Shown: piece by piece, positions 1,155-29,587 of the stretch
Layout: each line of letters starts with the position of its first letter
Numbering within the stretch: the first letter of the stretch is position 1
Source of the DNA: Acidiphilium iwatense
Lineage (GTDB): Bacteria > Pseudomonadota > Alphaproteobacteria > Acetobacterales > Acetobacteraceae
Assembly: GCF_021556475.1 (NCBI RefSeq)
Contig: NZ_JAKGBZ010000001.1
Span: forward strand, 1-64,000
DNA: 64,000 bases
Direction: 5' to 3'
Notes under the pieces: generated by a model
The model's input: only the letters and a program-made list of their open reading frames with translations
Database searches by the model: none
Told to the model about the DNA's origin: nothing
Made by a program: the position numbers and the translations under genes

Positions 1155-1317
1155 CTAGTGTGGCGGTTCTGAAGTTCCTATGCATTCGCGGCGGTGGTTT
1201 TAGGAACTCCAGAACCAAAAACCACACTAGAATCATATATTTGCTAGTGTTTTTCCGATTCGGAAGGTCGTAAAACGCCGCTTTTGGCACCGACGAACTT
1301 CCGAATCGAGACACTAG
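1155..1317. repeat. Double-hairpin dispersed element, copy 1
   Basis: Two consecutive perfect-ended hairpins. Hairpin A (1155-1230) pairs CTAGTGTGG with CCACACTAG and AGTTCCTA with TAGGAACT. Hairpin B (1244-1317) pairs CTAGTGT with ACACTAG and CGATTCGGAAG with CTTCCGAATCG. A 13-base AT-rich linker (AATCATATATTTG) separates them. A second copy at 29427-29587 keeps the same order, linker and stems. Each copy lies between two divergent genes. It has CTAG at all four hairpin ends and no visible target duplication. It could be a MITE-like element or a shared cis-regulatory structure. Confidence 0.85.
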
Positions 1318-29270: not shown

Positions 29271-29426
29271 GGTTAGTCTCCGTATGACAGTATCGAGGAT
29301 ACAACGATCACACTACGACCCAATATCGCCCGGATCGCGGCGAGATGAAGGCGGCCCGTGTCCATCTGTTACAATTTAGACGCCTCCGCGCCTCATCCTC
29401 GCCATAAGAGGTATCCTATATATTGG

Positions 29427-29587
29427 CAGTGTGGTGGTTCTGGAGTTCCTACGTATTTGCGGTAGCAATTTTAGGAACTTCAAAACTGAAACCACACTGA
29501 AATCATATGTTTGCTAGCGTCCTTTCGATTCGGAAATTCGTAAAACACTCGCTTCAGCTACGACGAGTTTTCGAATCGGGACACTAG
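29427..29587. repeat. Double-hairpin dispersed element, copy 2
   Basis: Same architecture as 1155-1317: hairpin A (29427-29499) with CAGTGTGG/CCACACTG and AGTTCCTA/TAGGAACT, linker AATCATATGTTTG, hairpin B (29514-29587) with CTAGCGT/ACACTAG and CGATTCGGAAATTCGT against its partner, paired through two G-U wobbles. Loops have changed more than stems. It fills most of the 336-base gap between the divergent FecR-like and lipoprotein genes; the rest of the gap (29271-29426) shows no other structure I can name. It ends 19 bases before the lipoprotein start. Confidence 0.85.

Follow-up and report, generated by a model that had tools for sequence, protein, structure and literature searches.

The window, by which we mean the whole 64,000-nucleotide (64 kb) stretch of Acidiphilium iwatense DNA analysed here, contains two copies of an element without a gene, each lying between divergent genes. 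Copy 1 (1155..1317) separates a LysM/Ig-domain gene on the minus strand from a LOG-type gene on the plus strand, and copy 2 (29426..29587) separates a DUF6600 gene (minus strand) from a gene encoding a small LSGC-lipobox protein (plus strand). A covariance model matched both copies on the minus strand, with 178 bits (E 2.9e-41) and 164.6 bits (E 6.6e-38), respectively, and set the start of copy 2 one position to the left of the interval 29427-29587 given in the first-pass annotation, which had located both copies correctly. The likeness of the two copies is not a matter of chance, since they are 78% identical (BLAST, E 3e-29). The genes that had been named on either side of copy 1 were recovered, as was the lipobox beside copy 2, but the supposed FecR-like neighbour of copy 2 is the DUF6600 gene, which gave no FecR hit in Pfam at E 0.01. 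The small lipobox protein had no Pfam match at the same threshold.

Each copy is composed of two consecutive hairpins, referred to as A and B, of which A is read first on the minus strand. According to sequence, fold and pair counts, hairpin B of copy 1 spans 1155..1230 (CTAG...CTAG, stem GGTTCTGAAGTTCC / GGAACTCCAGAACC) and hairpin A spans 1244..1317 (CTAG...CTAG, stem CGATTCGGAAGGTCG / CGAACTTCCGAATCG); the linker between them, AATCATATATTTG at 1231..1243, is conserved in the alignment of 25 copies (A2). The terminal CTAGs at the left (1155..1158) and right (1314..1317) mark the target junctions, as indicated by comparison with empty sites. In copy 2, the corresponding parts are hairpin B at 29426..29500, the linker AATCATATGTTTG at 29501..29513 and hairpin A at 29514..29587. 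The two hairpins with CTAGTGT-type feet and the common linker AATCATATRTTTG, all recognised in the first pass, were found in both copies, with the outer foot of hairpin B in copy 2 altered to GCAG, and the whole unit proved to be conserved in its linker as well as in its stems.

The type layout, read from A to B, consists of hairpin A (CTAGTGTCC-CGATTCGGAAGTTCG..loop..CGAACTTCCGAATCG-aaAGGACACTAG), a linker of 13-14 nt (CAAACATATGATT) and hairpin B (CTAGTGTGG-tttttGGTTCTGAAGTTCC..loop..GGAACTTCAGAACC-ACCACACTAG). Full-length elements measure approximately 163 bp with hairpins of about 75 nt, and shorter forms of 117-133 bp were also found. The stem of hairpin A contains GATTC (GANTC), and most copies have their unpaired bulges on the side of the linker. 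Because hairpins A and B are alike, the element as a whole is an imperfect large palindrome; many copies were also matched by the model on the reverse strand. The outer feet deviate from CTAG in several copies (e.g., L020, L004 and L017), and in the Roseibium copies (L238 3001-3167 and relatives) the foot is changed in a compensated manner, CTAGTCACCC / GGGTGACTAG. Stem B of copy 1 (1155-1230) additionally contains the word GAAGTTCCTA, which we take to resemble an arm of the yeast FRT site, a likeness judged to be coincidental.

The covariance model was built from 25 copies, 22 of them from the genome of the window (G000, 4.16 Mb) and three from two other genomes. BLAST with copy 1 and the scoring of 150 of 789 model candidates in G000 yielded at least 29 full-length copies (at least 120 bits) and at least 15 more distinct places with a partial match (38 bits or more). 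Where such partial matches lie at the ends of contigs, some may represent two halves of a single copy that another IS has interrupted. The element is short, gene-less and multi-copy, with at least 44 distinct places in this genome, and the prospect raised in the first-pass annotation that the two window copies might stand alone can be set aside.

Outside G000 the element was distributed unevenly. BLAST found it in none of the 12 genus relatives, in none of 47 further genomes of the family and in 2 of 40 genomes belonging to the class but to other families. A class-wide search of Alphaproteobacteria with the model, scoring up to seven candidates per genome, matched 22 of 385 genomes (G000 included), belonging to 16 families; ten of these carriers had at least seven matches each, some of which are reverse-strand matches of one place. 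All 17 matching genomes in an equally capped phylum-wide sample of 398, for which the share from outside the class is not given, were again Alphaproteobacteria. The twin-hairpin layout was plain in most of the printed carrier loci, the two weakest carriers, G066 (E 2e-6) and G426 (E 9e-4), being poor examples of it. Carriers include Nitrobacter winogradskyi, Caulobacter ginsengisoli, Hyphomicrobium and Terasakiella, metagenome bins named Pseudorhodoplanes, Rhodoplanes, Phenylobacterium and Bradyrhizobium, and plasmid records of Roseibium/Labrenzia and Ochrobactrum. Since this distribution is patchy, it suggests horizontal spread or repeated loss of the element. A weak match (L143 1232-1334, E 1e-5) was located on a contig binned as Conexibacter, which is possibly mis-binned. 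Phage records searched with one element query gave no match. The 24-letter pattern is present in six viral contigs, in some of which it forms a single hairpin; a lone hairpin A within nearly identical flanks is carried by two viral contigs (L216 and L217). For the loci obtained by pattern scan, 80 of at least 115 loci and the six viral contigs were searched with the model, resulting in 190 matches, of which 150 were used in the alignment; pattern-derived elements shorter than about 130 bp were dropped. The set of 99 elements from other genomes used below counts at least one element twice (L069 and L162 denote a single place).

Comparison with genus relatives at three loci revealed exact empty sites at two. 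The site of copy 1 is empty in G011 and G012, where it reads GACTCTATCAATAACTTGCTTCG (GACTCTATCAATAACTTGC), and filled in G000, where it reads GACTCTGTCG-[CTAG...CTAG]-CTTGCTTCG with CTTGC after the element; the empty and filled forms are equal in length around a single NTAN. The tetranucleotide at this site is ATAA in G003, G007, G011 and G012 and ATGA in G006. The second exact site is that of copy L023 between rsmG and parA, which is empty in G008 (GTGCAGC-CTAA-GATCATCGCG, with GATC after CTAA) and filled in G000 (GTGCAGC-[CTAG...CTAG]-GGTTATTGCG, with GGTT after the element). CTAA is found at the insertion place in seven of the ten relatives with the ortholog, the other three differing in the spacer. 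At the third locus, cox3-SURF1, the element was missing from 11 relatives, and the 3' junction was not clean, with approximately 12 nt that differ. In the exact empty sites NTAN is present once, and in the filled sites CTAG stands at both ends. Because all ten genus relatives with a LOG ortholog lack copy 1 in the 420 nt upstream of that gene and two empty sites are exact, the element is, judging by these alignments, mobile. Two identical copies on contig C2 are arranged head to tail with one CTAG in common, and a CTAG is shared in the same way by several neighbouring elements, including those at L175. Nine Roseibium/Labrenzia plasmids aligned across the full locus at 97% or more; the seven of them that were read for empty sites had none, with the element in the same place and 0-4 differences per 167 nt.

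The surroundings of the elements were described with gene calls from our own crude gene finder. Among the 29 full-length copies in G000, 12 lay between divergent genes, 13 between tandem genes and one between convergent genes, and three overlapped a predicted gene, so that the divergent setting seen in the first pass applied to both window copies but not as a general rule. The 99 copies in other genomes comprised 26 divergent, 50 tandem and 15 convergent settings and eight copies at a locus edge, and any overlap with a predicted gene was at most 27 nt long. The neighbouring genes often ended at the element itself: in this set, 30 of 82 neighbouring gene 3' ends had as their stop codon the TAG of a terminal CTAG. 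In a recount, 31 gene ends fell inside any of the 99 elements, 30 at the terminal TAG and one (L129) 27 nt inside. Such placement at stop codons offers a way for the element to spread through gene-dense genomes with the genes left unbroken. Insertion did not shorten cox3, which terminates at one and the same residue in G000 as in 11 relatives. At the rsmG-parA site (L023/L276, G000:C146:58948-59108) the predicted parA frame now starts within hairpin A, VTGIGGNELPNRNTR-VIAIANQKGG; the start that parA has without the insertion lies in the overlap with rsmG.

The excess of divergent over convergent settings in G000 (12 vs. 1, p 0.003, with the two tandem C2 copies counted apart) is one of the observations in favour of a cis-acting regulatory RNA or a terminator/attenuator family with a selected function near envelope genes, and the distances of 14 and 19 nt between the window copies and a predicted start codon point in the same direction. 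The skew was absent in the other carriers, where every orientation occurs, and at the three loci compared the element was missing from the genus relatives looked at, both of which argue against such a role. In Rfam, the window gave two tRNAs and nothing else at the gathering score, and nine loci with copies gave sub-threshold hits only. In an alignment of 47 copies hand-picked for diversity (A4), 97.4% of the stem cells were paired and 37 of 49 pairs had changed on both sides, a result reached in none of 500 shuffles, and pairing fell to 42.5% or less when the partners were slid; in the 25-copy set A2, 96.0% were paired and 23 of 43 pairs had changed on both sides. This strong covariation in itself would favour a regulatory RNA.

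Stems that work as RNA should tolerate G-U far more than A-C, and the two kinds of mismatch were counted for this reason. The count of G-T vs. A-C in A2 was 50:21 over all pairs (p 0.0008), in favour of RNA, but 19 of the 50 G-T cells belonged to two pairs predicted inside loop A, and the ratio was 28:17 (p 0.14) without three edge pairs. The larger and more diverse A4 had no G-T excess, with 36:27 over all pairs (p 0.31) and 19:22 without the three edge pairs; these exclusions, at loop or bulge edges, were chosen after the G-T/A-C table had been seen. With the edge pairs excluded, mismatches of the two kinds are about equally rare in the stems, and we read them as pointing to a palindrome that is kept mainly as DNA. 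The regulatory RNA, which the first pass had offered as one of two explanations, is hence left with neither an Rfam family at the gathering score nor a clear excess of wobble pairs, and we consider it very unlikely. Loop B was reversed in 2 of the 28 G000 copies compared (L054, G000:C107, and L063, G000:C101), which fits an exchange between arms. By eye, loop A of L059 (G000:C69:43560) appeared inverted with respect to that of L015.

The outer ends of the element were found to resemble those of IS630-type insertion sequences. The closest match was at L332 in carrier G428, where an IS630 transposase has its 3' end within CTAGTGTCCCGATTCCGAAGTTCG; this end is identical in 24 of 24 positions to the end of hairpin A at L071 in the same genome, and no hairpin partner is present downstream of it. 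The gene at L332 is not complete, scoring 28.5 bits in NCBIfam against a cut-off of 100; its 210-aa frame had no Pfam match, and over the part that matched it shares 64% identity with the transposase of L311. At L231/L328 in carrier G125, the end agrees in 21 of 24 positions and the transposase is 69% identical to that of L311. The latter is an annotated IS630 on a Roseomonas marmotae plasmid, the only locus in which both IS ends were seen, namely CTAGTGTCCTGATTCTGTAGTTCC and CTAGTATCCTGATCGCGAAATTCC, with 20/24 and 18/24, respectively. L311, L231 and a relic in G000 were assigned to IS630 by NCBIfam NF033545 above its cut-off. The consensus outer ends A and B of the element, its terminal inverted repeats, are alike in 16-18 of 24 positions. 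Five IS630 genes (L225, L231, L311, L314 and L332) use the TAG of a terminal CACTAG as stop codon, a feature missing in the other IS630 loci compared.

As a control, 731 CTAG-anchored 24-letter words from 60 loci were scored against the element ends. Scores of 16 or less were obtained for 611 of them, and the 120 words with 17 or more were nearly all presumably element ends: 112 had a possible hairpin partner and eight had none, by a partner test so lax that 291 of the 611 low-scoring words also passed it. Isolated half-sites made up 11 of 527, a count from which the lax test may have missed isolated IS ends. Measured against this control, the scores of 24, 21 and 20 at L332, L231 and L311 are far outside the main peak. 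The 18/24 end of L311, taken alone, is only suggestive, because a few words scoring 17-19 without a hairpin partner also exist.

The occurrence of transposase genes was less informative than the ends. A transposase of the L311 type was found in 4 of 22 carriers vs. 1 of 21 non-carriers (Fisher p 0.34), and co-occurrence therefore does not decide the matter. The one non-carrier with the transposase, G008, belongs to the same genus and has broken IS630 copies with ends of 19/24 and 20/24, higher than those in G000; a BLAST search of it for the element was negative. DDE_3 was detected in 7 of 15 carriers, and among 17 DDE_3 loci an end above 17/24 was seen at L231 only. In G000, we found no complete IS630 with closely matching ends. 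This genome has two IS630 relics, namely an N-terminally shortened frame of 310 aa and a fragment; both carry a single CTAGTG end of 16/24, so that the mover of the element copies in G000 was probably lost or not assembled.

Taken as sequence evidence, the ends strongly suggest IS630 as the mobiliser, and the unit is in all likelihood a non-autonomous IS630-type MITE of unusual double-hairpin build that is moved in trans by an IS630-family transposase. Of the explanations offered in the first pass, the MITE draws support from the number of copies, the empty sites, the ends of IS630 type and CTAG as the target; the thought that the unit might be the end of a known IS held insofar as the ends are of IS630 type, but the unit itself is a separate gene-less element. 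We envisage that the outer ends of the approximately 163-bp unit would act as IS630-type terminal inverted repeats, and that an IS630-family (DDE_3) transposase supplied in trans, which would bind and move the unit by reading the ends CTAGTGTCC..GATTC.GAAGTTCG, is the most likely mover. Insertion would occur at CTAG-like sites, with a TA core in most of the empty sites seen, and would leave CTAG at both junctions with a presumed target duplication of TA or CTAG. IS630 itself reportedly prefers CTAG and duplicates TA, as is said to have been established by Tenzen and Ohtsubo in 1991. Each hairpin in this reading is a complete facing pair of IS630-type ends (CTAG-repeat-loop-repeat-CTAG), two of which are joined by the linker of 13-14 nt, and the arms may be held complementary by hairpin-templated correction or by conversion from arm to arm.

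Two inverted hairpins with a tetranucleotide foot also give the element the look of a REPIN, and a Y1_Tnp was present in 5 of 15 carriers. Mobilisation of a REP/REPIN-type element would fall to a RAYT (Y1 HUH) transposase, the substrate of which is a single-stranded hairpin carrying a tetranucleotide foot, and REPIN/BIME elements share with our element the paired inverted hairpins and the dispersed, intergenic occurrence. They differ in being built from short REPs, described as 20-40 bp long with a GTAG or CGTC tag in the accessible part of the source (PMC3733652), compared with hairpins of about 75 nt here. REPIN/BIME elements go with a RAYT, and Y1_Tnp (PF01797) had no match in 10 of 15 carriers, G000 included. 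A DDE element is expected to show the tetranucleotide once at the empty site and at both ends of the filled site. The arrangement observed, once in the empty sites and at both ends of the filled ones, is DDE-like and, together with the match of the ends to IS630, speaks against RAYT, which we regard as very improbable.

Several known repeats are close to the IS630-type MITE proposed here. RUP of Streptococcus pneumoniae, an IS630-derived MITE, is likewise small, gene-less and multi-copy, shares its ends with IS630 and has a TA-type target, according to the portion of the 2007 review that was available (PMC2229807). By the same account RUP is 107 bp long with a 9-bp end repeat, vs. approximately 163 bp and end repeats of about 24 bp in our element, which in addition has CTAG junctions and two hairpins, each formed by a complete pair of repeats. 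Among alphaproteobacterial repeats, Bru-RS1 (103 bp) and Bru-RS2 (106 bp) of Brucella are short and palindromic, and by their description in the part of the source at hand (PMC10800456) shorter than the element. The nearest description encountered in the open literature is that of CIR, the CcrM-associated intergenic repeat of Caulobacter, Brucella and other alphaproteobacteria (Chen and Shapiro 2003, via the accessible portion of PMC2229807), with two long arms and a linker, TA termini and strictly intergenic location. Our element fits this outline, was found in Caulobacter ginsengisoli and has GANTC in the stem of hairpin A. By description, CIR is set apart by its length of approximately 110 bp and by GANTC at the terminal loop, as opposed to about 163 bp and GATTC in the stem. 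That the element is the described CIR is conceivable but somewhat doubtful; such an identity would be compatible with the MITE reading and would affect the name and novelty of the element rather than its mechanism. The literal string CTAGTGTCCCGATTC was not found in the open literature, nor did any title, abstract or passage available there describe the element. On the mobility of CIR, section 7 of the 2007 review, as far as it was accessible (PMC2229807), asks for more information.

The two-armed palindromic repeats of the CIR kind have so far been described without a mobiliser, and the combination of the IS630-end match, the empty sites and the CTAG target names one specific candidate transposase for two-armed repeats. 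A bolder and, in our estimation, improbable extension is that the double hairpin could be the working form of the element, i.e., two minimal transposons in one, which would be folded out (for example at replication forks), copied or corrected from arm to arm, and delivered by the IS630 transposase to CTAG sites including TAG stops. CIR, RIME1 and Bru-RS would then be short-armed members of the same superfamily; RIME1 of Rhizobium is, like the others, a short palindromic repeat that is shorter than our element.

Apart from the element, a second repeated end, (C/T)TAGGGTGTGTCGTCAWTT, was encountered at 148-151 of the window, where it coincides with the stop codon of the LysM gene, and at loci L016, L020, L225, L241, L242, L244 and L245. 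It lies near several contig ends, beside the IS630 relic of G000 and beside split copies of the element, and looks like the end of another IS that also uses CTAG/TTAG sites.
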